Positions 2,164-27,000 of a stretch of 64,000 bases of DNA are shown here, one piece after another (the stretch's first letter is position 1; every line of letters begins with the position of its first letter). The stretch covers positions 3,074,501-3,138,500 of the forward strand of contig NC_092580.1 of assembly GCF_037975245.1 (NCBI RefSeq), given 5' to 3'. Both the position numbers and the translations under genes were made by a program. The notes beneath the pieces are model-generated. The model was not told where the DNA came from. It searched no databases and saw only the letters and a list, made by a program, of their open reading frames with translations. The stretch comes from Apostichopus japonicus. Its lineage: Eukaryota; Echinodermata; Holothuroidea; Aspidochirotida; Stichopodidae.

Positions 2164-2209
2164 ATGAAGCTATCACATCTGTGTGTGATTCTCCAAATAC
2201 TAGTAGCAG
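2164..2209 (+). CDS. gene A exon: signal peptide
   Basis: Begins [15 protein letters not shown], a short positively charged start followed by a hydrophobic core, which is a typical signal peptide. It ends in phase 1 at a GCAG|GTTGGT donor. Translation starts here if the upstream in-frame ATG at 1592 is not used. Confidence 0.75.
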
Positions 2210-5200
2210 GTTGGTATCATCAATATGAAAAACAATTCCTTACGCTCCGTTCTTAAATTAGAAACTTTAACGCAAATTCCTAAATTAACGTGTTTCTCAT
2301 AATTAGTATTTTCCAAGTCTGAAAACAAGTTGTAATCTAAGGCGTATATGTCAGTTAAACAGATATGGTTTCGGTGTTTCAATGTCGTAGATAAGTTTAT
2401 AAAATACTTTTTAAAATATCAACAATATCGCACAATTATGCACGGCCAATATTGGGAGTTGATAAAATAGTGTGAACCCATACTCATTTAGAAAAACATA
2501 ACACTCCACACATACTTTCTATATGTTTTCATCTTTCTAAAGCTCAATGTGTGAAATCGGAAGTCATCTGCCAGGATACATATAAAGTTGTTCTTCACGA
2601 ACGTGCTGCCGTTTCCTGTACGTATGACATTTCGTTTCACACTGTACGGTGGTATCGATATGGTTCTGATGAGTCGTTTTTACGAATTGACGGTCAAAAG
2701 AAATCTGGTAGCGGCTTCACCTCTGGAGAATTTGATATAGAAGCAAATGGTACCATGATCATTACAGAAGTTGACATTAAACACGAAGGCAACTATACAA
2801 TATCGGTCTTAGGCGTAGACGGTCGGGGAACGCGTCAGGAATTACAAATATATGTCATAGGTACGTCATTTGCTTGTCTAGTTTTATGTCATCCGAGTCA
2901 ATTTTTCGAAGATATAATGAATGAATAATGTTCACGTTGTGTATTTGACATTTGGAGTCTCGATTTTCTATGTTATTATCAGTTTTTCATGTAGATAATC
3001 AATTAGATATGATGCGACTACCAACAGAAAATTAAACAACTGCTGATGTCTAGGGCTAGTTGGAATATATGACTCACTCTTTCTTACTTTCGTACTATTT
3101 TCCAGCACATCCGAAAGATATTGTTATCCAACACTGTGATTCCTCCAAATCATCAAAAGCATGTGACCATGTACTCAAAGATGAATTGGCCGATATTGTT
3201 CTCTGCATAGCGAAAGATGCAAGACCCGCCGTAGATATTACATGGTTTAGGATTAGTCCAGATGGTCCACATAAGGTCAACACACCAGACAACTACACCC
3301 GAACATTGAATAAAACGACTTCTCTATACACCACTCAGTCTGTTTTAAGCCTTGATAAGAATTCGTTTTCATTACAATACTTCATATGCTCAGTTTCTGG
3401 ACATGCATTGAAGGATAAAACTAATGTTTCTATTTTAATAAATGGAAATGTTCCTTATGGGAATGGGAAGATGGAACAGAAATATGTTATGGAAGGAGAC
3501 ACAGTTGAACTTTTTTGTCCGAATATGTCTTACCCTTTAGCATATGCAAAGATTACAATGGCGGACAGACGCGAAGAAGTATGGATGCGTCTCAATCCAT
3601 CAAGTCAAAGTGATGAATGCTTCGGTCAATCTATTTGTGTCTTCCCCACAAAAGGATTGGTTTCATTAACAGCGCTCAATAGAAATCAAGATACATCATT
3701 GGAATGTATATATGGCAACGGAAAATCCGCCGAACGACACGTAACCAATGTTACAGTGATGGGTAAATATGCACAGCATATCTCAATTTGGGTTAGGAAA
3801 CATTCCTTTAACGAGAGCATCGTGTTATTGTACAGTAAACGATATATTTATGTGTGTTTTTAAGATAAACCCTTGCAAAATTTAATACATCGTTTTAGCG
3901 CTTTACATACTCTGCAGAGATAATGTAAACACCAACCGGCTTTAAGTAATCAGGTCAATTATTAACATTATGACAGTAGATATAAATTTTGGTCTAAATT
4001 TATCTTCAACACAATACTTCATTTTCAGTAATTCCTAAGGCTTCCAGCACTGTCATTTATGGATGTGAGAGTTTCGAAAACTGTTCCAAAAGCATTCCAA
4101 GTCGAGGAAGAATAAAATGTTCTGTGTTCGGCGTCAAACCTCCAGTTTCGCTAATAATGAAAGCAAACGAACGTTCAGCAGGAGATATAGAGTTCTCGGA
4201 AGAAAGCAATACTATACAAAAGGATTATGATTCTGTGACATCAAGCACGCATTTATCAGCAGCATATGAAATTCAAGAATGCGTTGACCTGGTTAAGGTA
4301 ACGTGCCTTCCGAGTGATAATGAACTCCAAGAATACATCTTAGCATCTCAGGTGGTTTTACAGATCGGTAAGTATAACATATTCATCCTCAGTTAGTTCT
4401 TATTTCATAACAATTGACAGCATTTTTCTGCACGGAAACTGTATTTAATAAACATATCAATGATTTCACTTTTTGATTTGCTCTATTGTATGATATACAA
4501 CTGTTTCAACATACATTATACAGATGCTAATATCAATCATATTATTTTTTTAAAACAACATTTAGCTATAAGTAAAAATTATCAAATTATGTTATATTAT
4601 TAAATTATAGTGTCAGTTAAGTGTTATAGTTTCAATAGCATTATTGAGGAGATAATGTATAATCACAATGTCCGCAGCGGCTCTGGAGTAATTAGTAACA
4701 AAACTTTAATATCCTAAATCGATATTGATCATTTAAGAATTTCAATCACCATGGTTAAAATTAATATATTAATGAAGAAATCAATAATATTAATCTAAGA
4801 TGATGAGGTTGGTCAGGAAATAGGTTTTCAGACTTAGATTCCATTTTGTTCTATCTTTAAAAGATAAATCTACCTGCTCCGGTGGAGGGCATGGAGCGCT
4901 CGTGGCTGTTCTTACTGTTGGTTTTGTTTTGATAGTATGCGCTGCAGTAATCTTCACGTATATGTACACGAAAGGTAAGGCTCATTGATTTCAAATGCGT
5001 GTGACTAGACGTAATAATTATGTGAGTATTAGAGAGTAATTAATTGACGGAATTTCTTGGTGAAAATCATAGTTATAGATCTTATTCATCCTATTGGGCT
5101 TTTAGTTCAATACAATAGAGAATATTAAAAATAAATGTCAAGCACATGTTTTTACTTTTGCTCTTTGACCATTACAAGAAAGGCTCTCTGTGGTAACATT

Positions 5201-6112
5201 GTTGCATAGTTTTGTTATTGAGTATTGCTCGTAAATATGGAAACACTGATTTTATTTCCATGTGCAATAAAGGAGTGTCAGTGCGAAAATGTGTCATTTG
5301 ATTTGAAGTGAAAACATACGTTTCCACATGTACACAAACTCCATCCCTTACACCAATTGGTTGAATAAGGTATTTAAACTGTAAGGTACATCAAACTAAA
5401 TGCAATGAAATGCTTAAATAAAGTACAGCCAACACTATACTGATAACTCAATTAACGTTACGTCTTAACGAAGGTCACTTATCAAAGGTCAGTGCGAGAT
5501 GTTCAAGCCAGAAACACGACAGCGAGGAAGGCACGGCATTAAATACTGACCAAACCGATGGGGCTCAGGAGAAGGTAGATTTGCTTTGCTCTTCTATTTC
5601 TATGCACTTTTCACTAATTAATTGTTTCCCAATTTACTATAGAGTTGTACCACACATCATTTAAGTTAATTAATTTCTAGCTTACATAAAGATAAGCTGT
5701 GCGCAATGAATTGCTCTCGTAGAATACTTTTACTTCTTACCTCCAGCAATGATATGTCTACATAGGGGTCGTTACCGACTCATTTCAGGGAGCGGTCACT
5801 GAGCCCCTACTCAATGGGTAGAGCACAATATTTGTAATCATCTAGTCACTGGTTTGGACCGTTCAGTCAAACTTTTGTTTGCTCTTTCAAACGTGAATAT
5901 TATTTCGTAATCGGTTTCCTTTTTTTCATTGGTATCTTACATCTCTCCTACAGTACTAGTCGACCATATTTGTAGCATGTACGTAAGTGTATATTTCTTT
6001 ACCAAACATCAAAACGAGGAATCGTCTTCAACAAAGGAGCTCAGATGGGATCAATGAGCGGAAAAGAAAAGTTAAAGCATCATATATATATATATATATA
6101 TATATACATCTC

Positions 6113-6203
<91 letters not shown>

Positions 6204-9200
6204 ATATATATATACATCTCGTTTTCCTTTTTCTTAATGTAGAAGGTTCATCAGGATTCGAACGAGGTTACTGGGGATGATCCTTTGTCTCATCAGCCGT
6301 TATTGCAAGACGTACGTGCTACTTCACATTAAATATTTTTAATTAGGCTTTTCTTCATTCATTATTGGCTATTGTGGCTATCGAAATCACTTTGTTAAAT
6401 TAAGTGGGATTTTGGTGGAACTTACGTGGGTATTACTTTTTTTTTCGTTTTATGACCAACTATGTAATGTGTACCCGCATAAAAGGATACTTCGGCAGCT
6501 AACTGAAACGTACTTTTACTGAGAAGGAGCTTTGCAGACTTTTTTTGCATCATATCGATCGTTTTTACAGTATGTAAAAATGGTTGTAACAATTTAAGTT
6601 CAACCTAATATCGAATCTGCGTTGTGATCTGCGTTTGTTCCTAATACAATGTTTAATACCCTTGTTTTCGTTGGCGATTAAGTAACCATCAATTAGATCA
6701 CAGATATAGCTAGAGCTAAAAGAAATTGGATTCTTTCGGTCATTTGAATGGTGATCACAACGATTGATTAACCTAGCTGACTATAAAATCGTTAGAACAA
6801 ATGTTACATAACTATGATCTGCCTGTTGGAATCACAGGATATGAATGGAAAATCGAAAGAAGACGGAAAGGAATTTACCCATGATCATCCACATAAGGTA
6901 ACGATAAAAGTTTGAATTACTGTTAGAAAAGGTCGATAACTAATGCAACAAACTTCATGTCTATATTTACGACACTAATATTCATTGATATTCATTAAAC
7001 AGAATAGCAAGTATAGATATAATTTGTGTAATTTATCCAATACCGGTACAACCCTGAAGGATTTGGGGCTAGTTAAGCTCGACTATAAAACTTGTCTAAT
7101 ATTGCTTGTTGTGTCTGAATTTCGCATTCACAAAGATAACTTTTCATGCTGAACTTGTAACACAGGTTGAGATAACACAATGAATAACTACACCACGTTA
7201 TCACCTCTGTCTTCATTTGCATTTTATGAACTTATTTATAGGATTCAAAACTTTCAGGCAATCAACCGAACGAGGGAGAGGAATCTACACTAGCAGATGT
7301 ACCTCAGATATCAAAGGTTAGAATTTGATTGACGATGTAATGAAAATATTCACAAGGCACAGTTCTAATTTGTCAATGTTAATTTTGTTGGATTCTTGTC
7401 CACATGTTTCTCTTGTTAAAATTCGTTCAGAATTATCTGTTACTGTCCTTACTTTATTTGCTCTTAAATTTTTCTTTCTTACAATTCTTTATTTCCTATA
7501 TTATTACTTCTTCTAACCTTCTTTCTGTTTGTAAATTATGTATGCAAATAGGCAGAAGAAGCTACACAAGAAAGTGCGCCACAGGTACACTATACAGTTG
7601 CATTAAATTAATGTAAAATATTGTAAGGAAAAACTGGAAACTTGACCAAAACTGAGTATAACATGATAAGTTTTACTTCAGGTTGATGTTGGTAATGAAA
7701 CAAAGCCAAGCAGCCAATGTATTTGAAAAGGGTGTTGAGGACCGTTAAATGTACGTTGCGACATTTTTTACTGCTTTCTGGAATCACAGTCTTTCAAAAA
7801 TTCTAAAGAATGAATCAACCGTGGATTTTCGAATAGAAAACTTCTGATTATGCCCTTACTTCATTATTATTTTCATTATTCTTTCTTCAGTTATTTAATT
7901 GCTTTACTTGTATCTGTTCAAAATTGTATATTTGTTTCTGTATGCTAGTAGTTAAAATATCCTTCTTATATATCAAATTCATGTAATTGAATAATTCCTG
8001 TTCCGTGGTATAATTCATCAATACGGTGGAAAACATGACACTGGTTGCCACCATTATATGGTTACCCTAATTTTTAATTATGTTGTATATTATAATCTGA
8101 TATACAGGATCAACAAACTCAAATTAATCAACCCAAAGAGGAAGACAAATCTACCCAAAACGGAATGCCACAGGTACACTATATTACATCAATAAATATT
8201 GTATTAAAACTTACCAATGATAAAGTATGACTTGATGAATTCTTTGCTGCTCCTGAAATCACATAATTTTTAACACTTTGATTTACAGGAGTCACAGACT
8301 CCGAAGAATGAATCAACAGAAAAAGAGACATATTTACCAGGGGATTCACCAGAGGTAACAGTAGCTACAATTTGCTATGAATATTTAAAGGATAACACTT
8401 GAAATAAATGGAGTATAGCCCTATAACGATAATTCCGTGTTGTATTTGATATAATCGCATTATTAACGGTGTTTAAAACCAATTAATCATATGTCATATG
8501 TGTTTTAGGCTCCTCAAGTTGAAGTTGAAAGCAATCAATCAACACAGGAGGAAGATTCTACACCAGTGGAGGCACCACAGGTAGCAAATCCTTCTTAACG
8601 ATTTAATTTAGATTTTTTTATTTTGTAGTTTTTTGTGGGGTAGGGGTGTCTCGATTGAATAGTCGAGAATTGCAAAAATGCATGTACCAAATGAACGTGT
8701 TATATTTATTACTTTCTAGTCACTTTATAATCATACGATTTGTTCTTCTTCGCTCAGACTACCAATCTCGACGAACTCGTGGAATCATTTATAAATGAGG
8801 TAATAACTTCTACCCTCGGGGTTGGGCTAGACGAGCTAAAAGTAGTAGCATTTTGATTTCTAGTACTTATAGTCACAATGAAATATTTACACGCGATGTT
8901 ATGCATACTGCTATATTTATTTAGCCGGAAAACCCAAAGCTAACATGTTTGTTGGTATGACCCAGTATCTTAAAATTATGTGTCTTCATTATCGTATTAC
9001 GACATATCGTATTCTCAACAAAAGGTTTTACTCTTAGTATACAGCTTATTATGTAGCGTAATGCTACTGTAATACTGTTCTATATCGATGGTTTCTCGAA
9101 CATGATAAAACTGCACAGAATATGGATAGAATATTTATTATATTTATATATTAAATAACTGAAAGGATATGAATGATTCTCGTACCCATTTAACATTTCA

Positions 9201-12200
9201 ATTTCATTCAAAGTATATCAAGAAATAACCGTACCGAAGTTACATTATACTTGTTGCAATTGTACTTGTTTCTAAATTCCGTCAATAATTTATACTTCTC
9301 TTTGTAGCCATCAAAGAAAATGTATGATCTTTGGAGAGGTATACTTGATTCACGCAACGTAAGTAGTATATTAAGTCAAAACACACCATTAGGGTCAGTT
9401 GTTCCTGTTAAACAGCTAGTAAAAAGTAACCACGAAGACTAATACAATCCATTTAATTAATGTACAATAATTTATTTTGTGAAATATGATGAGATATATA
9501 TGTCTAGTAAATTATAGTATAGTTGTAAAGGATGAAAATGAAATTACCGTTTATGATTTTCTCATTATAACCAACAGGAATCGCTTTGTATTTATTTGAA
9601 AAGATATATTCCAGATAAGATGAAAATGACCGAGGTAAATATACAAATAACGTCTGTAATCGGGGCTATTTTTTTTTACAATGGTGATTCGGATAACGAG
9701 TTAAATGTGTATGATATGATTTGATGGAAATGAAACAAGACATTTTCTGCTGTTCAAACACCAGAGGCTGTTTCAATACATATTTGTTTGACAAAACCAC
9801 TTCACTTTGAATCACTTCTATTGCCACGTTGAAGAAAATACGAATTGTAAACCAAAATGATTGTTTTGAAAAGAGTTAAACAAAAAAGGACTGTGTACTT
9901 ATGTATTTCCTTTTAATCTCATTTACTTTCATTCAGGACACGATTACTGCGATTATGAAGTTCTTCGCTACCTGCAAAAAGAATGATTGGGTGAGTTTTT
10001 GCTTTAATCTCTAAAGTAAATAAGTATTCCATGAGAACTGTCCTATAGGATACCACCAATCTACAAACTGTAAATTAAGTTTACTGTTCAGTATATTGCA
10101 TTCAATTCTTGCTTTGTATACTTTTGGAATATCTACTTTTGATACATATTATGATATTCTCTTTCAGATAACTTCAGAGGAAAGTTTGGACTTGGTCAAA
10201 ATTACAGTGGAAAAGGTGATAAGAGAAAGGCGATTGCATTGATTTCAACGCGGCAAAATACTTGAAATATTTTTTTTCTTCTGAATCACAATTTGCATTA
10301 CCTTTCATAGTTAATTTTTATCCGTGTTTTAAGAAGATTTCCCTTAAGTGATTACAAAGCACACATGAAACGCACAAAGGTCTTATTGTTGTGTTTATTG
10401 CCTGTTGAACAACACTAGCAAAAAAAAAATCATATATTTGCCGCGATGTATAGAATAATAGAACAATAAACATAGAACAGAAAAGGATGGAAGTATATTA
10501 CATCTGTGTCAAGATGAAAGGACTTGGTATTTATTTGCCTTGGCTGAAGTGTGATTTGAGGCGAAATCGGTCGTGAAAATTAGATTGCGAAAACTATTTC
10601 CTTAGTGTTACTTGAAAGATGTATACCAAATTAAACTATACATGTTGTAATACAAGCTCATGGTTTCCGAAGCTAAAGATAATTATCAGATCACTGTTAC
10701 TTTAATGATTAAACAATATCAGTCAACTAAACTTGCCCTTGTTTAACGTTTAATTGTTATTTTTCTTTATTGAACAGCAATCTGTTAAATTGGCTTTACA
10801 AGGACTTGGGATAGCATATGCACTTAAACAGGTAAATTGGCAGCATTTTCCCAGCATAAGAACTTTGAAAAAAGCTGAAATTGAAGATAAATTAAGGCGC
10901 ACAATGTATTTAGGTATGTTATCTACCATTTAAGCAGCTGTTATTGATTTGAGTAACTTTTTATTGAGCACTATTCTTTACATATCGGCATTTTGTTGAT
11001 AAAGGGTACCAAAAAAAGACTTGTCATCTATTTCTTTATCTTTTATTGCTAATTGTACAATTTGTTTATAGTTTACAACGGTTGTGCAATGTTTCATGTG
11101 CTGTCTTATGCAATCGAGTAATCTCATTTGTTTTCTGAAACTATACAGATTGACGATAAACAGTATGCGCAGATAAGTAGGCCCTTGAAACCCGAAATTC
11201 AGGTAACAAGAAAATTCTTAAAAGATAAATAATCATAAAGCTGCATAAAGTTACGCTCCATTACATTTGATCAAGTTAAACGTTTTGAAAAGGTCCCTAG
11301 ATAACTTAACTATAATTCATGATTGCAGTAATCACCCCATAAATTGTTGTGCGTGCCGTTTCCATATGCATTGACATTACATCGTTTGTTTCATCAGCAA
11401 TCGGGTAGAGACCTGGCAGATGCAACAATACACTATTTCATTACACATGAGGTAAGATTTTATCATCTTATATCTTGTTCAAAGTCTTGAAGACTGTAAC
11501 TTATTTATCATTTTATTTATTTAGATGTTTATACGAATAAATTAGCTATCAAGTTGTGCCATCTATACAACAAGACGAAATAACCAGTAATACCTATCTA
11601 TGAAACAGTAAGAACTCAAACGAAAAGTCTTTCTGAAAGTATTATTCTCAATATAGAAACAGAAACGGATCACAATGATGGATGGAGATTTATGCTAATA
11701 GTATCGTCGCCGATAAACAAACAGGGGTAACGCATTTGTAATGTTATTTTTTATAATCTACAGATAGGGAGCGAATTCGTTATGCCGATTATTGGTTATA
11801 GAGGAATTGGAAATAAAGTAGGTTCAAACGTTACTATAAAACTTACTATGTTTTCAACTACAGCGAATTAATATCTGTTTACGTTGTATTGTCACGCAAT
11901 CTATAAATTCAACATGCTGATAACATTTTGATACGTGAGAAGGTAAACATGAGTGAACTCACACCCTAAATGAATATGAAATCAGGTTGCACGATGCATT
12001 ATAGTGTTTTTTGAATGGCATGATATAAATTGATGGAATTCATAACCTGGAGTAATTTGGTGAACAACACGTGGTCAAAACTATAATCGGCTATTCTTTC
12101 TTCAAAATTGGAATCCAAACTAGCTCAGAATGCTGGATTGTAATCGGTGTTTTTACTAGTTACAAACATTCCTTTGAAACTAATTTGACTATCGTGACTA

Positions 12201-15200
12201 TGTCTTCTTCTACAGATTCCTTATCCCTACTTCTTGCAATCTATCCACAACAAATTTCAAGGAGTAAGTATTATCATGCTTATTCTTTCATTAAGGCTAT
12301 ACAAAGAATTCTATAGTTGATTGTAAAACCAATCGGCTTTGTTGCACACTACGGGACGAAATGTTGTCATGTAACTTAATGATATTTCACTTGTCTTTTT
12401 AAACATATTCATTTGTAAGAATGGTAATTCGCCAATAACTGTTTATTGTGATAGAAATAATTTTTCATTTAAATATGTTCTAGTTTAATGTATATATGTC
12501 AAAAGAACTTCATCAAACTACATTGCGATTCTTTCACAGGATCGTAGTAAGAATAAATTATCTCCCCTGTTCAAAGCTATCGTGCAGACAGCAACATCTA
12601 CGGTAAATATTTATCTTTATCGAAAAAGTATTACAACAAACAGTCAAACAGTTTCTAATTCTTTGTAAACTTGTAGCATGTGTTTTGTGTGTCCGACGAA
12701 ATATTATATAGAAGGTTATAAATCACTTATATTTCGTCCTTGATCTGAAAATATTACATTGATTATTTTAATCATTTCAGGCAAAGAATAGTATCTTTAC
12801 AGATGAAGTTTTGAACGATTTATCAAATGGCCAGGTAACCACTTCGATTTGATATTTATTTGCGTTATTTGTTGTTGTGTGTGTGTGAACAAGAAACCAC
12901 AACAACCGTTTGAATATAAGAGCTGGAAGAAGAACATTTGTATTCTTAAACAGTGCAGACAAGTGCGTAAAGAAATAATAAGGTTTGTCTGGAAGGTGGC
13001 TTGTAGAGCTTGAAGAAAATAAATCGGAGCTGGGCACGTACTGTGAGGGGCAATAGTAGTCACCACAACGGTGACTCAACACCTCCCGACAGAAGGGAAT
13101 ATTTTATTTGTTGCACTTAACACATGGGAACTTGTATTTTTTTTAAACAAAGAAACGCAAGTTTTAATATTACTAAAAGTAGAGTATGGTATATCTTCCT
13201 TTAAAAGAAAAGTTTTTTTTATGAAAATGGCCATTTCACGCTTTGCAAAAAATACGTGGGCCATGTACCCGGCCCCACACAAGGTTCAATGCCAATGTTC
13301 AGCTTATTTGTTAGTGAATAGTTGGTGATAATATTGCTCTTTTACATACTACAACTCAGCAGATGAAACGTCGATGTGAAAAATGGCAAACCTCTTAGCA
13401 GTTACTTTATTGGGTTGTGTCAATATCTAAATTGTAACACTGTTCACCAACCAATGTATGTAATATACTGGCCATTAATCGGCAGTGTACAATAAGAATG
13501 TATTGATTTCAACCGCTGAAATAAGCAATTTTAAGTTTCACACCCTTTTAAATAGAAGCAGACGTTAGAATTGTTAAAAAGGTCGGTAACAGGATTTTAA
13601 AACGTGAAATGCTTTCTTCTTATTTGTAACATGGTCTATATAGCATAAATGCTTTCACTTTTCTTCACAGGAACTATCAGAGATATTTTTAAGAGCATTG
13701 TATTTCAGCGTGCAAAACACAACTGTAAGTTGTTGTTTTGTTTTTGTTTTTGTTTTTTTTAAAGTGGCGTGAAAGATTGAAGATCAACATCTCAATCCAT
13801 TACTTTCTTACAAAGTTTCTGAGGATGATTCTGTTTAATAAAAAAAAATCATATGTGAGGGTTTGTTACAAAAATATTGTTACAAATACAAACAAGGGAT
13901 ATGAGATGAAGAGAAGTTAAACAAAGAGTGAAAATGGAAGAACTTTCTCTATCAAAATAATTATTTTTCTTTCTATATGACAGATTGATGCAAGTACGTG
14001 TGTGGATATTTTGAAAAATAGTCTAAAGAGTAACCAGGTAAAATATTAAATTATTGAAAATTATTATAATTATTCTCTGAAAAACATTTATGACACGACA
14101 TTTAAGTAGGACATCAGGAATGCGTTTTAGTAAATAGGTAATCTATTTGTGCGGCGAGCCCCAATTACAGGATAGTTGCCAATACATTTATAATAAATAA
14201 GATATCAACAGTCAGAAGAGTTGTTCGAACTTTCCTGAATTTAGGTCATGTATAAAAATGTATAATTTCCATTTAAATAGTCGACCTGATTTTTCTAGAA
14301 AATAACATTAAATGTTTACATTAAGTGAAAAGAGTATATGCTATATATTTATCCCACTGCTCTGCTGCTCGTTCATTTTCTCAAAACATTGCAATGCAAT
14401 AGAACTGAATGCTGCGTTAATTGTATGTGTACTCAAATGTAGTTTGTTTAATGTGCATAGTATCAATTTATTCTTCTAGATAACTAACGCTGACTACCAC
14501 AGGTCTATGAACACATGTTGTAAAGACGGTTGGGTAAGTAATAATGATGAGCCTCTGTCTAAAATATTATCTATATATTTGAAACATTTCTGGTGGAGTA
14601 ATTTCTGGGTTACTTAATCGCATGGTTCTCTATGTTCACATTCACGGGGAAAGGGACACCACCGAAACATAATAACAAAATGTAAATCCACATATCCATT
14701 CACCCATCTATTCATGTGATCGATGTGATATGAAATTGTAAAATTGCAAAAGTTAAGAATGAGACCAACTATAGTTTTCAATACGAAACCCAGCACGTAG
14801 TAGAACGTAAACCCGTATGAATAACCTCTGAATTTCTTTTCCAATATGCAGCTGACAGGAGAAAATGTATTATCAATATTACACCACAGCTTGGATAATC
14901 ATTTGGTAAGTGTTAATTGCAGCTTAATTCATAGCACTGGAAACCCGATTTATAGCTGTTAATTTTGAGTTCCATAACACATGGAACTAATCGGAGCTTG
15001 AGTGTTGACCGATTTGGAAGTGTCTTTATTTTATGACAAAAGGCGGCTTAATCCATTCACTCAAAAAGTTCTCAATAACTTGGTATTGATATGAAAGTGT
15101 ACGGGCAGGGACAAAAAGGGAAAACTACCTAAAAAACACCGTCAACAGTTCACTGAACAGCCGATATTCAGGGTGTTATGAATCTACTAGCTGAAAAGGT

Positions 15201-18200
15201 GCCCGGATTTTCTCAGGCAACAAGGTGTGATGTTACCTTTCATCAACATATGTTGAAAATAAAAAATAAATAATAAATTATTTCCTATACTTCAACAAAA
15301 AATCATTATCACGACATTACGGAATCTATCCCAATCGCCGTGGAAGATTTTGCGGTAAATGCGTCATCGGCGTTTACTGCATTATATTAAAACGCTAGCA
15401 CACCTTGAGAGAACTGCGACCAAAAGAGAACCAAGAACGCTTTGTAAATAAAGCGGTTAGTTCTTAACGGTCAGTAAAATAGACTCCATGAAAAAGACAT
15501 CGCATTAGCTAATTCCAGCTTTTGAATAACATTTGACATATCTGATTAAAACCGACAAGAGGAAACCATTAACTTAAAGCGACATACCCCACAACGAAGT
15601 AAATGATCGCTATTATAACTATATATATTTAGTTTATGTAAAGATATTTACGCTATAAACGTTACACAGAAAACCTTATACACTAAATTACATCATATTT
15701 TTCTTGCATAATAGGACAAAGAAACATATTTTCTTCTGCAAATGAAGTCTCTTCTTCAAGATAAAAAGGTAATAAAGAGCTGTAGACTTACGGTATTGAT
15801 GGATATGAATACTTCAATTTGCTAATACATAATACAAAAGCCACTACTGCAGAAGTTTGGTATAAATTCAAAGAGTTTCATTCGATCATATTGCTATAAT
15901 TATCTCTTAAATCTGTAAAGCAACAATTCTTAGCGTGGCAGCAGTGGCATCTATAGTCATAACATTATGTTTACACGTATGAAAGAGAATATAAAGAAAT
16001 AACGAGCGTTCCATAAGAGATCATATGGAAAATAAGTCCATAGGTTACTTTTGATTTCATATCAACATCCGAAAGATGTTCTAAATAGTGTCACATATTG
16101 ACCCGTATTACTTGTCTAGGTATAGTCCACTTAATCGCATATTCGTATAATTCCAGTAGGCTTTTGTAGATGTAGGATAGCCGGACGGTGCAATAATTCA
16201 TTGATGAATAAGAATGTCACTCTGTTTACTGTTATTGTAACTTAGAATTGTCGTACGTCTTCAATCTTGTATGTCACTTTAACAGACATTCCTATAACCT
16301 TTACATATCCTTGCTACATGGTGGCCACTCTTTCAAAACCAAAGTGTTCTTTCCCCTCTACAATAGATTAATCTCAACCAATGGGTTGATGAATTAAAAC
16401 TTTGCAGAAGAGAAGGCATGGTAAGCCCTTTGGTGTGAAATAACGTGTTTCAATTGTATTGTGCCTGCAATCGTTTTTTTTTTTTTTTTACGTTATTGAA
16501 AATGTGGAATGGATCACAATGAATATGTGCCTTTTGCTGCTTTTTTTAGGATATTGAGAAATATAATTGATATTTTCTGTGGGACACATTTTGCGAATGG
16601 AAGCCCCTTGCGTACACGTTTAAACCTTCATTTGTTGTCAGTTATAATGAAACTATACGTAATTTGTAATTGTTAATCATGTATGAGTGCAGTTCATTCC
16701 CGTAGTTTGTCCTTGAAAATAATGAACAAATATATATAAATAAACTTCCGATTTTTTAATTAGATTATGTGATTAATCGACACTCATAACCTTCGCGCGA
16801 TACGTTAATCTTAGACTAAACTATAACTATATAACGGTGTTTCATATTCTCTTACAGGTTGATAGGGATTCTTTGTATCTTCAAGTGAAGGATTTCATAT
16901 CAAACACTACTTTCGGAGTAAGTTTGACGTTGTTTGTTTGCTACGGGAGAACCAATATACTTAACCGGTTTTAGCGGGAAATTTCCGCTCATCTGGAAAA
17001 TGTATAGTCCCATAATATTATTAACGTTTCTAATTCATCTATTAAACATCACTTTCTTCAGTGATTTTTTAATTATGACGCAGTCCTATGACGCAGTGAG
17101 TACACTTCGTGCCACGTGACGATAAGTGTAATGATTTTCCTCATTCCATGGGTTAACATTTAATAAGATATTATTTAAAGTCAACATATCCTCGATGATT
17201 TGGTTTTTTGTTTTACTTTATTGGTTAATTTGAGGTTTCCGGTAAAACAAATTTTAAGTTAGGTTGAATTGCGCTTAAAGACATTATAAACGTGACCTAA
17301 TGTAAATTGCCCTTAACTAACTTTCTTTATATTATGTTCTTCTGGTTTCTTATAGTGGACCAAAGAGAAGTGGATCAAACTTGTCTGTGAACTACAGGAC
17401 GAAAAATTGGTACGGTATCAGTTGAATCAAAACTTAAATAATAAAAGTCGATCGTTTACTTCATAAACTAAACAGGAACAGCTTCAGGGCATGATTACGT
17501 CTGATGAAAAGCAAACGTGCAAAAACTCATTGTTGAATTATCGCTAAGAAAAATTTCATGAAGGCATTAAAAAAAATAAAAAATCAACGGAATGAACATT
17601 GTTCCTTTACCATATTTTTCTGCAGCTGGGAAGCAAGAAGTGTTCGGACCTCCTGCAAATTATTATAGACAAACATGATGTAAGTATCAATTCATTTCTT
17701 AAAAGAATCAGTTATGATCAAAAAGATCAGGTACCTTCGCTGTGTGTCTCTTCGTTTGACGTGTCTTACATAAATGTATGCTAAATTTATTTATGGCAAA
17801 TTCGTATCAAGAGTAGTCAGTTTGAGAAATATTTTTCTAACTTTCTCCTGAAAGATGACGGAGAGAGAAATGAACAGTATTCTCGAGTTACCAACATTCG
17901 TAAGTAAAATAAGTCTTTTGCATTCCCTAACCATCGTGGACGACAATGCTTGTTAACGAAGGGCTTAAAATAATTGCTTTAAAGGCAAACGTTAGCCTGG
18001 TAGGCTTTAGTATAGCCTAGGAGCTTAGATATATTTCTTTTTAAGGGGAGCGGAAGCCTTTCCAGGGGCTGGCAGAACCTAGTGTTTACAGGAAAAAAAA
18101 AAGATTTACTGGTGTTCAAATAGGCCTACGTTTTCAAAATATTTCGCTTTAAAGCTGTTAAATCTCTGCAATTTGACTGTTTAATGAATGAATTAACGAA

Positions 18201-20104
18201 GAAGTCGTCTCCTTAGTGCAGGCCTACATGTTAATCTTAATCCATTGCTCTATACATTCTATTAACTCGACTAAACACGGATTGTCTCGTCCATTTAAAA
18301 CGGGGATCGATAGATGACATTCAACATATTTGTCCTTTGTAATGTTTTGTAAGTATGTTATTTGAGTTTATTTTGAATTAAGTGTGTTTCATTGGTGAGT
18401 GTTATGTAACATGTGACGAACTGACGATTATCTTAGTGTACGACTGCGAATTTAGGTCACCTTAATTTATGAGTTCGAATGTTGAATGCGTTATTTTTAA
18501 TTTGAATGTATAGAAATACAATCTAGACTGAAAGCATTGTCATTTATCAACATGTCTGGATGAACTTAGTCCTTTTACAGCCATTGCTATCATCATAAAT
18601 GTCGTGGATTATTTAGAATAATTCCGTCTGTATGTGTGTATTGTACTACACGATGGTGCATTAAACCTTCATGCTCATTTTCATTTCTGTTTTCACATAT
18701 GCTTCCCTCAAAGGAGCTTACTTCAGTACCAAAGAATATTCTTCATAAAGTTAAGGTACGTAACAGGAAGTACAAGAGATAGTTTCCATGTGGAATGTTA
18801 TGAGTCGGAAGCAACCTAAAGTTATCAATAACGCATGAATATATATATTATGTATATGTGTGTATACTTATACAACAACAAGGTGCGCCTCTATATGATA
18901 CTGACCTAACGCTACCTATTTTAAGATCAAGCACATTATATGTTTGCTGTTCCATTGAAATTTGTTATATCTCTTGTTATATTTAGTTCAAACAACAAGA
19001 TGAGGACCTAGAAAGTTCCCAGCTGGTAAGCATTAAATATATATATATCTCTCTACTTTATGTCAATAAACTAACATTTCTGGAAGGTAAGCAACCGTTA
19101 GTAGTGTTTCCTTTATCCTTTCTCGAAGAGCTGCTAACAACACCCTTGACTTAATTGTGACAGTGCTCTATCATGCACTACTTTCTCTTTTCCATTTCCG
19201 TAGTTGAAAAAGGATGCTTCCAAAATTGTACGTATTTTGCTTATTGCTTCATTACGAAGAATTGTAATAAGTGTCTCTGTACAAATTTCATACGGGGCTT
19301 TAGATTTAACGAAGTCGAAATGTTGATGTTCATTTAACTGTGCAGGACTGCTTTGTTTGTAGAAGTATTTATCATTAGTTACCAACAAAGCCATGCGAAA
19401 GAAAGCAGCAAGATAAATTGACACTGTGCATCAGTAAGAATCTGAATCTGACCAGGACAGGTCTTAAATATAGTTTTGGTGATATAGGAAACGTTTTTTT
19501 TTTTTGCATTGTAACGTCGACCATTGTATACAGAAGACGTTAGGAGCAATTCAGCAGTGGAACTAGCCATATATGTGATATATTTATACAAAAAAAGTGC
19601 GTTAGCAGTTGTATCCATAAATAAACAGCCAAAATGCTTGAAATATTTGACTCATATTTTTATTGTATTTTGCATAGAAGAAATCCTTCATGTTGCTTGG
19701 GGCTTAGTTGCAGACAATATAACAAATGTTGTTGAATGTTTGTTTCTACTTGCAGTTTGGTAAACAGAAACACGATGGCCTTGCTGGTAACGTTGAAATG
19801 GTAGGTAATACCAAAATGAGCACTAGTCTGTAAATGACAATAGTGTACGTTATTATCAGAAAGCATAACTTTTACTGGGGTTGTTCAATTTCCAGAAGGT
19901 CAAACCGTTTCCCCAAAACTATTAGTTCAATGGAACCATTCACGTCAAATATGTAACCTTGATAAACATGACGTGCACTAGTAAACAGCTAAGAATATGA
20001 TCACGTGCAGTATGATGTTCCGTTTGTACCTGGTAAAAACTTCCTCAGTCATATTCTTCCTTCGTTTTTAGAAAAGCGTCAAGAATCGTGAAGAGCTCAA
20101 TTAA
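2164..20104 (+). CDS. gene A: Ig-domain transmembrane receptor with a mini-exon-encoded cytoplasmic tail
   Basis: Orphan cell-surface receptor. The inferred model has 40 exons, 3366 coding nt and about 1121 aa. The extracellular part (residues about 1-455) has a signal peptide and Ig-like domains, followed by one transmembrane helix (about 465-488) and a tail of about 630 aa. The first five exons all join in phase 1, exon 5474-5574 converts phase 1 to 0, and every later exon is phase 0-0. Joined this way the frame has no stop until TAA at 20102-20104. No enzyme domain is visible in the tail, and I recognise no named orthologue. A role in recognition or adhesion is inferred from architecture only. 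Gene B, a second Ig receptor, converges on it from the right. Exon edges rest on consensus splice sites and phase; additional exons in the longer introns cannot be excluded. Confidence 0.8.
2543..2860 (+). CDS. gene A exon: first Ig-like (V-type) domain
   Basis: One 106-residue phase 1-1 exon holding one Ig-like domain. The B-strand cysteine is in VSCTYD, the core tryptophan in VRWYRYG, and the F-strand signature appears as EGNYTISV. The position that normally holds the second cysteine (Y-x-C) is isoleucine here, so the canonical disulfide is missing. Two other cysteines near the start (QCVKSEVIC) may pair differently. Donor CATAG|GTACGT. Confidence 0.75.
3106..3762 (+). CDS. gene A exon: two further Ig-like domains
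   Basis: A long phase 1-1 exon (219 codons) with two Ig-like folds in tandem. The first has cysteines in DIVLCIAKD and YFICSVSG with tryptophan in ITWFRIS. The second has VELFCPN and SLECIYGN with a weaker core. It carries several N-glycosylation sequons, consistent with extracellular location. The acceptor is TTTTCCAG and the donor GATGG|GTAAAT. Two Ig domains fused in one exon suggests loss of an intron between originally separate domain exons. Confidence 0.75.
4029..4367 (+). CDS. gene A exon: cysteine-containing membrane-proximal domain
   Basis: A phase 1-1 exon of 113 codons. Cysteines occur in YGCES, ENCSKS, IKCSVFG, QECVDL and VTCLPS. The pattern IKCSVFG...VTCLPS fits a further divergent Ig-like domain, but the core tryptophan is not clear. 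The donor is ATCG|GTAAGT. Confidence 0.65.
4864..4974 (+). CDS. gene A exon: transmembrane segment
   Basis: A phase 1-1 exon with about 20 hydrophobic residues ([20 protein letters not shown]) ending in TYMYTK, the usual basic stop-transfer end on the cytoplasmic side. The donor is AAAG|GTAAGG. Confidence 0.8.
5474..8580 (+). CDS. gene A exons: acidic repeat-like juxtamembrane tail (8 small exons)
   Basis: Exons are 5474-5574, 6243-6311, 6838-6897, 7242-7316, 7552-7584, 8108-8173, 8289-8354 and 8509-8580. The first switches phase 1 to 0; the rest are 33-75 bp, phase 0-0 and related in sequence. They are rich in E, Q, S, T and P with the recurring layout x-Q/N...ES/ST...(A/V/M)PQ at the exon end (for example [22 protein letters not shown]). 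This looks like repeated duplication of one symmetric exon. No catalytic motif is visible; it is probably a disordered linker. Confidence 0.7.
6082..6213. repeat. (TA)n microsatellite
   Basis: Long TA dinucleotide run, interrupted twice, inside the gene A intron just before exon 6243-6311. A short sequence (acatctcgtttt) occurs at both ends of the run, suggesting slippage or duplication. Confidence 0.9.
7682..7726 (+). CDS. gene A candidate alternative terminal exon
   Basis: A pyrimidine-rich acceptor (TTTTACTTCAG) precedes a phase-0 open stretch [14 protein letters not shown] followed by TGA at 7724-7726. Its composition matches the neighbouring tail exons, and it lies between exons 7552-7584 and 8108-8173. 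If used it would truncate the receptor before the mini-exon array. Confidence 0.4.
   Translation, partial: VDVGNETKPSSQCI
8758..20104 (+). CDS. gene A exons: array of 27 phase-0 mini-exons (cytoplasmic helical tail)
   Basis: Exons are 8758-8799, 9308-9358, 9578-9634, 9937-9990, 10168-10215, 10778-10831, 11149-11202, 11398-11451, 11764-11817, 12216-12263, 12540-12602, 12781-12834, 13671-13724, 13984-14037, 14480-14533, 14852-14905, 15715-15768, 16367-16420, 16858-16917, 17356-17409, 17626-17679, 17855-17899, 18714-18755, 18987-19025, 19204-19227, 19756-19800 and 20072-20104. All are phase 0-0 and 14 are exactly 54 bp. Each encodes one predicted amphipathic helix of about 12 residues plus a polar turn. 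Many units start I/L/W-T-x-E ([30 protein letters not shown]) after a G/D-W or Q junction. I recognise no named family; a helical solenoid is an inference. Confidence 0.78.
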
Positions 20105-21077
20105 ATATAGTAAACTGAAGAAATGTGCAGTGTGCGGGGAGCTACAGTTGAGAAATTGACGGGAACGATGTATATACATAACACACTTGTGACAACATTT
20201 GATGATATCTCTCAACCTTTATCACCAATCTTGATTTCGATAATAGTTTCTTAAGGTGTTACGTATGATCTTGTATTCAACTGCAGTACTTATTGGTAAT
20301 TGAATCCTCACCTTTTTTGGATATATTTCGTGTTCTGTTATTATGTTTTCATTGGTTCCTAAACCAACGGTTATATCAGCGTTTTGACCACGAAATGTCA
20401 TCTTCATATGTAATCTTCCCTTATCCGTAAAAGTTTCATTTTTACATCGCATACGACGCCACCAACTAGTGTTATGTGCGTTGACTCGTTTTAACCAAAA
20501 GGAGAATGGCAGCACCATGTGCCTCGTGAGATAATAAGAAGTAATCATTGGCGAAACTTTATACAGCATTGTCGATTAGAATCTACTTAGAACAGTTCTG
20601 TTCGAATACAGGTCTAAATTTACACATGTATTTCAACACTGGCCTTATTTTCATCTCCAGTTTAGCAGTTGACAATACCGAACACAAATCCCTCTCTCAT
20701 CCCTCAGGGCGTTCTCACAGTAGCGATAATGAGATAATGTTTGCGACTTGGGATGACGAAACAGTACGATTTTATGGTTGATTGGTGAAGATGTTAATTG
20801 TAAAGGGGGAGGATTCAATTAAGATGTTATGTCTCATGACTTATCTGTATATGGAATTAATTATGTTTCTCCCCTACAGAAACGGTCATTAATTAGGGCA
20901 GATCTGTTCATATCCTCTTCTTTTGTTCTTGCTGGGTCTCTGTAAATTCAAGTATTCCATTTCCCACATGTTCCTTCGTTAAAGTCCATAAATTCCGTAC
21001 ATCCGTATTTAACGTGAAGTATGAAGTCAATCGTAAACATCAAACATGTTATATGTGAGTTCATTAAACTCACTACT
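20105..21077. other. convergent intergenic space between genes A and B
   Basis: Contains the 3' ends of both receptor genes. An ATTAAA hexamer overlaps the gene A stop (20100-20105) and may act in polyadenylation. A lone minus-strand open exon candidate lies inside (20312-20522). Confidence 0.4.
20312..20522 (-). CDS. orphan exon candidate, unidentified
   Basis: A minus-strand open frame bounded by an acceptor-like AG (read TCTCACGAG) at 20523-20525 and a strong donor (AAAAAG|GTGAGG) at 20312. It encodes a protein-like segment with TSWWRRMRCKNETF and GQNADITVGLGTNENI. It lies beyond the stop of gene B, so it is either an exon of a separate small gene, an alternative end, or a relic. The segment loosely recalls extracellular beta-rich domains such as the Methyltransf_FA type, but I cannot assign it. 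Confidence 0.35.
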
Positions 21078-24000: not shown

Positions 24001-27000
24001 ACTGGAAACATTTTGGGCCGTTTGTCACATAAAACCACAATTCTCTGATACAAACTCTGTTGTTTTTATAACAAAAATCGTGATTCAATATTACGTTCAT
24101 TAATTACAATTTTGGCCGTGCAACTACTTTATTGTTTGTTTGCATGACTCTACCTTCTATGTAGGACGCAATAATGTCATGTACTTGGTCTTCATCATCT
24201 GTTAATGTTCCAATCCAGGTTATGAGTACAATTGAACTTAAACCATTGTTTGTGAATTTCATATTTTCCCTCGATAAAGCACGGGAAGCCGTTTCTTCGT
24301 ATTTATTTCCACGATGCGGAAAATCTATGCCGGAAAGATCAAAGTTATATATCGTTTACTTCGTAAGCACACTGGAAATGTTTGAGAGCCGTTGCATTTT
24401 GCCAATAATTACGAAATGTAACTAGTACATCTGTTGCTAACGTTTGGGTGGACTGAAACTGGTTACTAAGATTAGGTGAACTAGCTTGATGATAAAATAG
24501 TCAAGTTGTGTCATAACTTAATCATATCACACCTAGTGTAATCATGAATTCTCACGAACATGTGTTTAATAATGTGCCCCTTCTCAAGAATGCATATTAA
24601 TTTAGGATCTGTTAACTTGATATCGTTACCACAGAGACAATACAGCATGTTAAATAAGACAATAACCATTAAACTGCTTGATCATTAACTGACGACGTAC
24701 CTGGGAATGATTCGTAACGCCAGTTAGTAGCGTCGTGTTCCTCTGAATTTACTGTTGAATGCGGTGATTCTCTGTAAGGATAAGAGAGAAACACACAATT
24801 ATTTTTTATATGTTACATTTTAACAAAGTGCACTGGTTTTCTTTTCGTTTTACGACGGATTTGATTAATGCATGTCATAACAATTTTAGTTCTCACCCCT
24901 ATCTACTTTAAAAGGGCTTGGTGCTTATGTTAAGCCCGGAGGTCACAGTTTGTATTTGATAAATACAGAATATATTTATGCTGATCGTAACGCCATTGTT
25001 TGCAGTTTTGTCCGAGTTGTTGTAATGAACAGCCAAGAGATTGAACATGTGATTTTTAAGATATCATTTTCTTCTTTGATGTTTAATACTAGTAGTTCTA
25101 ACTCCCCACACACACACGCACACAGACGCACACACGCACCCATATGCGTAGGAGGGGGGCTGCAACCAAACGTTTTTGTGAAAATTCGGACAATATAATT
25201 AGTTAGTATTAAATATATGTTTTAACCATTTCATGTATATGTACAATCATTACATTATCATTATATGTACAATCATTACATAATCATTATATAATTTTTC
25301 CGGCACCTACTGAAAGAAATATAGTTTGCAATGTGTTTTTCAATAGTTAAACTGATATAATTATAATCATTATTATTGTAACGACTTCCCCAATAATTAT
25401 AAAAATATGGAAGGGTAATAACACGGCCAAATATCTTATGTTATTGGCATACAATGTAATAAGGGGATGCGTGTCTATATGATACGCACACTACCATGTT
25501 GAATGCGCGCGGAGCGCGCGAAAAAGTTTGGTTATATTTTTCGGGCAAGTCGTTACAGCACCCCCCCCCCCCTCCCACCCCCCCCCCCCCCCAAAAAAAA
25601 ATATCAAATTGGGCTCCTACGCCTATGCGCGCACCTAATCTAAAACTTTGTAGTCGATCGCAATCTCAATTCTTTACAATACAACTTTCCATTTATCTTC
25701 AATGTTAATTAATGAAGAATTACACGAGCGCACAGTACTTACGGTGGCGGAAGTTCATGCTGAGTTCCTCGTGAACCTATAGAACGGAAAAGAAGTGAGT
25801 ATATGATTAATCTAATGAATGAACATACTATGTTATTGAATATAACTCGGGAGAAACATTGTTTTAGGTTCCGCATGATGTGAAAGAGCGAAAATGCGTC
25901 TCCTTAATCCACATAACAGTCTGATAATACTGGTTTGTCAGATATGCTGGCTTTAAAGCCCCCCCCCCCCCGAATGTGTACCTGCAATGAATCCGAGTAA
26001 TCCGCAAGTATTCAGACATTTATGAGAATCGTTCTGTTGAACAATTTATCAGGCTTACGAAGGTTATGTTGTTCTTGTTTTAACAAGGGTTAAGTCATCG
26101 CAACACATTACATTAAACGCTACAGGCCTTGCAGTTACATAGCACAGATCCAAACATTTCATGATTTCATGAATACATGGCTATCGTTTGTTACACTCTT
26201 TTCTATCGTTCCTTTCAGTTGGTGTGTTTTCCTTTTCTTTTCAGTTAACGAGATTTCAGACCTACTATCTGTTAGATATCACAGAAGTGAAAACATGCAA
26301 CAAATAATAACAATGGCATGTGATCTTTAGACCACATTGAAATACGCCAGGAATTAATATGTATTGACATTCGGTTATCGTACCATAGTTCTTTTGAAAC
26401 AGGAAGAAGCAGATGACGATTATAAAAAAAACTCCAGTAACGGCAGCTGGTTTCCAATAGTTAGCGAGAGTCTCGGATGCAACACGAGGCACTACAAAAA
26501 AATCGATACATAAACGAAATTAAATTATTTGCACCTTTGCATTAAGAAGAATACGATAAGATTATACAAACAATAATCTATGGAATAAATAAGTAGTAAC
26601 CTAAAGTATCATTATTTTCACCTATTTACATTTCAAAGAGTTTTAAGAGATTTTGACAGAGGCTACGATTAATCCTACAGTCTCGGTTAGAATCGCGTAG
26701 AATGAAAGTGTATAACTAATACTCACCAATGACAGTTACCGTCTTTGTGGCATTACCCACGGTGCAACCTATGATTGTGTGATTCGGGTATTTCGTTAAT
26801 GAAAATTTCTTCATACTCCCTCTAACGGTGACATTTATACCCCGTGTTACCGATGGAAATGATCTACTTTTTGTTTCAAAATCTGTTTTCAAATTATTTA
26901 TATTCCAAGAATGTTGATCCGCTTGAATCATTTGATCGCCATAACATTCCATCTTGAGGACTGTTAACGTTGTATTTAAACTCAGCATTCCAGGACATTC

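Follow-up and report, generated by a model that had tools for sequence, protein, structure and literature searches.

The window analysed here, 64,000 nucleotides of Apostichopus japonicus DNA, corresponds to C20:3074501-3138500 of the genome searched (671,581,487 bp in 35 contigs). Its forward strand carries an immunoglobulin (Ig) receptor gene with a predicted mini-exon tail, as an earlier note on this DNA had claimed: signal peptide, Ig exons and a transmembrane (TM) exon, then the array. The signal-peptide exon (2164..2209), read from the sequence, ends in phase 1. The exons that follow are all phase 1-1. These are Ig exon 1 (2543..2860), assigned from Pfam on the joined ectodomain together with the sequence; a large Ig-like exon of 219 amino acids (3106..3762; Pfam C2-set_2), which served as the query for paralogues; a membrane-proximal ectodomain exon (4029..4367), recognized by its open frame and splice sites; and the TM exon (4864..4974), again read from the sequence. 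Pfam matches of the joined ectodomain are Ig_3 (2.2e-7), V-set (7.1e-6) and C2-set_2 (1.9e-5). A candidate juxtamembrane joining exon at 5474..5574 passes from phase 1 to phase 0 and would connect the TM exon to the phase-0 array; its acceptor is weak (1.6).

The phase-0 array begins upstream of 8758, the start given earlier, with seven acidic linker exons (6243..8580, plus strand, all phase 0-0) that were defined by the exon model and by composition. They lie at 6243-6311, 6838-6897, 7242-7316 (or -7298), 7552-7584, 8108-8173, 8289-8354 and 8509-8580, and encode 34 D/E versus 10 K/R in 141 amino acids. For the third of them, a model trained on paralogues favours 7242-7316 over 7242-7298. A long AT-rich dinucleotide repeat (6083-6215) separates the joining exon from the first acidic exon. 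At 7682-7726, a phase-0 open stretch that follows an acceptor and ends in a stop was found by eye; it is a possible alternative last exon, which would yield a receptor without the helical tail. Beside the receptor, two open frames on the minus strand (26716-27093 and 28238-28579) resemble exons of another Ig-like gene. Pfam gives Ig_3 at E 0.0046 for 28238-28579 and no match for 26716-27093, and the exon model found no mini-exon array in the window on the strand of this gene.

The predicted helical array (8758..20104, plus strand) comprises 27 consecutive mini-exons, the number first described, of which 26 are internal and the terminal one (20072-20104) carries the stop at its end. All measure 24-63 bp and are multiples of three, and 14 are exactly 54 bp long. 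The good splice sites previously noted are likewise borne out, with AG/GT borders and phase 0-0 in every one of the 26 internal exons. Exonic sequence makes up 1353 bp of 11347, with a median intron of 314.5 bp. Several units have recognizable counterparts elsewhere: an 18-residue exon (9937..9990) towards the N-terminus of the tail in several paralogues, a 48-bp exon of 16 residues (12216..12263) and another of 18 residues (13671..13724) in several paralogues, and a trio near the C-terminal end (17356..17899; 18, 18 and 15 residues) in paralogues P3, P4 and P10.

Exons were called with a model that chains them by acceptor, donor and codon scores. The first version, trained on these window exons, gives a chain score across 6000-20200 of 327 on the sense strand versus 4.5 on the antisense. 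A second version was trained on 219 paralogue exons with the window excluded, and is partly dependent on the first since its training exons were first located with the window model. It returns 30 of the 33 internal window exons (seven linker and 26 helical) with a score of 236. Its controls stay far lower: the antisense strand reaches 14.1, the best of 12 overlapping background stretches of the window 14.0, and the best of 200 Markov shuffles 10.8. The controls of both models rule out a chance origin of the window exon chain. Calls remain model-based and some are wrong or doubtful: the window-trained model adds an exon at 13556-13585 and stretches 17626-17679 to 17730.

Paralogues in the Apostichopus japonicus genome

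A genome search with the 219-residue Ig exon gives 75 matches at E up to 10. Twelve of these, the window itself included, stand at E of 1.9e-17 or lower, and the next match follows at 1.6e-5. Eleven of the 12 close loci are on contig C20, around 3.0 and 25.2-25.8 Mb, and one is on C12. A paralogue search in the same genome had been named by the earlier note as a check on its proposal; the search yielded 11 paralogues, with mini-exons downstream of each. The 20 kb downstream were fetched for 10 of them, C20:25765959 being left out. A mini-exon array occurs on the expected strand in all 10 (sense scores 119.9-259.5, antisense 1.2-10.2), with at least 18-38 chained exons per paralogue, linker included; several tails extend past 20 kb. 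At C20:25765959, tail-exon matches are found downstream at 25768597-25781730. Downstream mini-exons are thus present at all 12 Ig-exon loci with E below 1e-16, window gene and 11 paralogues together.

The arrangement between ectodomain and array is equally regular. All 10 fetched paralogues have a TM-like exon behind the Ig exon, recognizable as a hydrophobic open frame with splice sites. With the window, this makes 11 loci at which Ig exon, TM exon and mini-exon array follow each other on one strand. In 10 of these 11 genes an exon joining phase 1 to phase 0 scores at least 18; the one at C12 is weak. The choice of joining exon is ambiguous in P1 and P5, and the TM donor found in P4 has phase 0, so that a joining exon may be unneeded there. 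The juxtamembrane phase 1-to-0 exon at 5474-5574 probably fills this position at the start of the window array as well. The array might instead be a separate gene behind each Ig receptor gene and unspliced to it, the situation that the earlier note had said would refute it. The weak acceptor of the window joining exon and the low score of its C12 counterpart speak for such a division. The shared order on one strand at 11 loci, window included, and joining exons at 18 or above in 10/11 speak against it, and make two separate genes very unlikely.

The paralogues were found through the ectodomain because the tails are too diverged for exon-wise detection. A query with the window tail (the first 22 of its 27 exons) gives 19 genome matches, every one inside the window's own array. 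For the P1 tail, 53 matches are listed, 50 of which belong to the C20 clusters of P1 and P2; the three others are weak (C19, E 0.14; C17, E 0.54 and 1.69). The C19 match proved to be a simple tandem repeat of VMMSICDVIKTKLV units and was rejected as a relative. For the P7 tail, 63 matches are listed, all on C20, in the P7, P8, P9 and 25.77-25.78 Mb clusters. No intronless tail copy is found among the matches listed for the tail queries of the genome. The window gene probably belongs to a set of 12 type I Ig receptor genes, grouped here by Ig-exon similarity; we give this grouping the same good, incomplete confidence as the explanation of which it forms part.

Exon order, constraint and duplication

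The window tail and seven others can be aligned through shared landmarks. Identity to the window is 16-28%, and no column reaches 90% conservation. Despite this divergence, the order of exons is maintained. The window order beats 200/200 order shuffles against 7 of 10 paralogues; a shuffle does as well in 1/200 for P6 and P9 and in 14/200 for P5, which is a weak result. These are not 10 independent tests, P1 and P2 being close kin, as are P7, P8 and P9. Pairwise comparison of close kin gives intact exons in 40/40 cases for P2 in P1, 36/38 for P1 in P2, 20/21 each for P8 in P7 and P8 in P9, 30/33 for P9 in P7 and 27/33 for P7 in P9. The count for P7 in P8 is 18/33, with 13 lacking a match in the fetched stretch and two partial. 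Gap openings within exons number 6, versus 62.5 expected at the intron rate (three overlapping pairs). Paralogues have thus largely kept the order and length of their exons, along with reading frame and splice sites.

Substitution rates qualify this picture. In four pairs, dN/dS of the tail is 0.52, 0.71, 0.44 and 0.67; for the ectodomain exon it is 0.71, 0.46, 0.35 and 0.36. The tail is under purifying constraint, but this is not strong, being weak in the pairs at 0.71 and 0.67. Values as high as 0.71 and the great divergence of the paralogues would also suit a decaying remnant, in which the array is untranslated debris of duplicated exons from a former domain. Such decay is scarcely credible beside six gap openings where 62.5 are expected, 40/40, 36/38, 20/21 and 20/21 intact exons in the cleanest comparisons, and a strong helix periodicity that has been kept. 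P1 and P2 differ from one end to the other: their tails are near-identical (dS 0.105), but the large ectodomain exon has diverged widely between them (dS 0.715, dN 0.508). The contrast suggests either homogenization of the tails or exchange of the ectodomains.

Single exons have been copied in tandem. In P9, single-exon tandem copies are spaced at 466-492 bp (units of about 490 bp), and five tandem copies encode the identical peptide VELEENLAEVKTTKDDCQ. A run of VDKESFLTFTMSLLKEGL-type exons is also present. The tandem units and VDKESFLTFTMSLLKEGL-type stretches are located at L044:3627-6029 and L044:7335-9955, and at C20:25487072-25491921. P7 and P9 share another recurrent, nearly identical exon type, which is found past the fetched region as well. 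The tandem units and identical-peptide copies make the expansion look recent. The copy number of single exons varies between paralogues, and in this respect the variable-length helical solenoid suggested by the earlier note is compatible with the data.

The stress that the same note placed on free exon skipping and a very large number of tail isoforms fares less well. Frame neutrality stands, as every internal exon is phase 0-0. The emphasis on skipping is weakened by the order, lengths, frame and splice sites that are held between paralogues; these data fit ordinary inclusion in an ordered fold. In its strongest form, the skipping model makes the mini-exons a combinatorial alternative-splicing cassette, from which cell-specific subsets would produce many tails of differing length and surface. 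Any subset of the 26/26 internal mini-exons in phase 0-0 stays in frame, exon copy number varies between paralogues, and modular leucine-rich repeat (LRR) exons of NLRP3 can be skipped, with an inactive product (PMC6642158). The symmetry of phase is, however, already accounted for by exon duplication, and exon order is kept between very divergent paralogues, with lengths, frame and splice sites mostly held. A choice among the five identical-peptide copies in P9 would moreover alter length only. We consider a combinatorial cassette unlikely. Given this conservation of exon order and structure, an ordered helical domain enlarged by duplication of single exons is the most likely reading of the tail; phase-0 exon borders allow such growth without a frame shift.

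The exon unit and its predicted fold

The unit of growth is short and recurrent. Across the chained exons of the 11 genes, linker and doubtful exons counted, 54 bp is the length of 176/336; the next commonest lengths are 57 bp (28), 48 bp (23) and 42 bp (18). The 18 positions of the 54-bp exons have the consensus [ILV]-[TDS]-x-E-[ED]-[FYL]-[LV]-x-x-L-x-x-x-L-K-E-K-[KLQ]. Its first 14 positions supply the loose repeat announced previously, now as a pattern without a tight repeat; the helical exons diverge strongly in sequence and the pattern is their common signal. Over positions 4-16 the hydrophobic moment peaks at 90-100 degrees, with 1.27 and 1.31 versus 0.82 and 0.81 in shuffled sequence. 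Over all 18 positions it is weak at 100 degrees (0.74 versus 0.70). Positions 5-16 contain 1.2% Pro and 2.6% Gly. The start of the unit has the features of a helix N-cap, with T, S or D as the cap, a hydrophobic residue in front of it and an acidic first turn. Positions 1 and 6 are hydrophobic, position 2 is the cap and positions 4-5 are acidic, which we take to be a capping box with a hydrophobic staple. From the moment peak and the low Pro and Gly content, one 54-bp exon is predicted to encode about one N-capped amphipathic helix and a short polar loop. The helix-per-exon reading already proposed is therefore sustained by consensus and hydrophobic moment, as a prediction.

Comparison with known folds gives few leads. 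Each of the 25 Pfam families listed for eight tails matches at most one of them; the best are SDA1_HEAT (E 8.2e-4) and TFIIA_gamma_N (3.4e-3), each in 1/8 tails. TPR, PPR, PUF, LRR (E up to 10) and EF-hand families are all absent from these 25. A tail profile gives nothing convincing in Pfam, NCBIfam or PDB, where the best E is 0.26. The consensus unit has some likeness to an EF-hand exit helix (myosin light chain, E 0.069). An EF-hand protein was rejected, as about 4-5 residues separate the helices in the consensus, versus the 12 residues of a Ca-binding loop. Exon similarity at lag 2 and lag 1 is about equal overall (9.0 versus 8.5) and higher at lag 2 in P1 and P2, and the last residues of adjacent exons do not alternate; a strict two-helix repeat finds no support overall.

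The tail could nevertheless be a drifted member of a known helical fold, such as HEAT, TPR, PPR or an EF-hand-like protein. This concerns the fold only and is compatible with the preferred explanation. The single SDA1_HEAT match, the likeness to an EF-hand exit helix, the 36 residues encoded by two exons and the higher lag-2 similarity in P1 and P2 all point that way. Against it stand the lack of any listed Pfam family in more than 1/8 tails, PDB profile matches no better than E 0.26, and near-equal lags overall with no alternation of the last residue. We regard descent from a known fold as a serious possibility that falls somewhat short of an even chance. The window tail further contains two ITIM-like and two dileucine-like matches among signalling motifs, and no motif that would name a partner.

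Building a protein from symmetric exons, one per unit, is already known from collagens, LRR receptors and schistosome micro-exon genes. Fibrillar collagen genes have many whole-codon exons, most often of 54 bp or 18 residues, and keep frame on skipping (PMC9320522). The sea cucumber exons share the symmetric 54-bp length (14/27 in the window, 176/336 in 11 genes), but they lack the Gly-X-Y triplets of collagen and encode predicted amphipathic helices. Schistosoma micro-exon genes have arrays of tiny exons, most of a length divisible by three, separated by long introns, and encode secreted products (PMC10526429). The window exons resemble them in size (24-63 bp, all multiples of three); unlike those products, the window gene encodes a membrane receptor, with a TM exon at 4864-4974 and a predicted helical tail. 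NLRP3 likewise builds the repeat region of an immune receptor from modular exons whose skipping is frame-neutral. Its units are LRRs with demonstrated splicing, whereas those of the window would be single helices encoded by predicted exons. Taken together, collagens and NLRP3 show that modular exons can be either constitutive or skipped (PMC9320522, PMC6642158). Neither a report of 54-bp or mini-exon Ig receptors in echinoderms nor a precedent for exon-per-unit building of a helical receptor tail was found among the papers listed by literature searches, whose coverage excludes subscription journals and bioRxiv.

The predicted tail in the position of NACHT

Behind more distant Ig relatives, a different arm is found. 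In a 5 kb sample of C16, 1.5 kb behind a distant Ig relative, an open frame contains NACHT (PF05729, E 1.1e-18). At C16:4476200-4482699, a NACHT open frame follows directly on Ig exons and a stretch that resembles a TM segment. No mini-exon array occurs at distant Ig relatives in two 5 kb samples, one from C16 and one from C11. A genome search for NACHT gives at least 106 matches (106 of 488 candidates scored). Among the matches listed, NACHT lies within 15 kb downstream on the same strand at 0/12 close Ig loci versus at least 21/63 distant loci, a share that may differ in truth, as many of the 63 are weak Ig matches, with E as high as 9.6, and the Ig relation is distant. A control in the reverse direction gives 0/75 loci among the matches listed. 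All 21 NACHT-linked distant Ig matches are on C16 and C12, and no NACHT is found on C20 among the matches listed from the 106 of 488 candidates scored. Further NACHT open frames, near-equal in length (mostly 510-512 amino acids), are scattered across C7:3.1-12.3 Mb and look like a recent expansion.

Receptors of the Ig-TM-NACHT type have been reported from A. japonicus. Two reports describe AjNLRC4 and AjNLR-new as membrane receptors of this architecture (PMC8699970, PMC13133943). AjNLRC4 binds microbes via Ig and mediates phagocytosis of Vibrio, according to its report (PMC8699970). With at least 21/63 distant Ig matches linked to NACHT, receptors of the published AjNLRC4 type seem to form a large family in the genome. 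The window gene has Ig domains and a TM segment, comes from the same species, and has an Ig exon distantly similar to the NACHT-linked ones. The window group differs in having no NACHT within 15 kb (0/12, among the matches listed) and in possessing a tail of helical mini-exons. The helical tail would thus occupy the place that NACHT holds behind related ectodomains. An immune role of the window group can be proposed from its kinship with Ig-TM-NACHT receptors.

The explanation that we consider probable, with appreciable room for error, is a group of type I Ig receptors with a cytoplasmic linker (acidic in the window gene) and an ordered all-helical domain, helix per exon, that grows by exon duplication and serves as a scaffold in the place of NACHT. 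The exon anatomy, the family, the constraint, the helix periodicity and the genome positions of NACHT versus array can be read from sequence. Splicing into one mRNA, mostly constitutive inclusion, scaffold function and partners go further and are our interpretation. The signal peptide and single TM exon would place the tail on the cytoplasmic side. Ligand binding to the Ig part would then cluster the receptor, and the helical tail, present mostly as a whole, would act as an extended scaffold that recruits cytosolic partners. Tail length and surfaces would be set by exon copy number, with lengthening through tandem duplication of single exon units. Counting against this explanation are the weak acceptor of the window joining exon, the phase-0 TM donor of P4, the 14/200 order result for P5, the dN/dS values of 0.71 and 0.67, and the topology of AjNLR-new, which its authors give in reverse, with NACHT outside and Ig inside (PMC13133943).

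A bolder version, which strikes us as quite unlikely, holds that single-helix exon cassettes were exchanged with NACHT, and that exon duplication between genes and regulated inclusion of exon subsets in immune cells alter the length and binding surfaces of the tail, with many isoforms per receptor and a new helical-repeat fold. If true, it would provide an intracellular counterpart of variable receptors in sea cucumbers; were the exons variably spliced, diversity would reside on the intracellular side of the receptor and not in its ligand-binding part. On the preferred explanation of an ordered scaffold, the array is a clean natural case of a protein growing helix by helix via exon duplication, recent tandem copies included, and the long-standing problem of how exons relate to structural units could be tested on it directly. 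Exons this short are easily missed by gene prediction, and published gene sets may lack these tails. The comparison with NACHT suggests a receptor family that has swapped its whole signalling arm, NACHT versus a helix-per-exon array, behind related Ig ectodomains within one genome.
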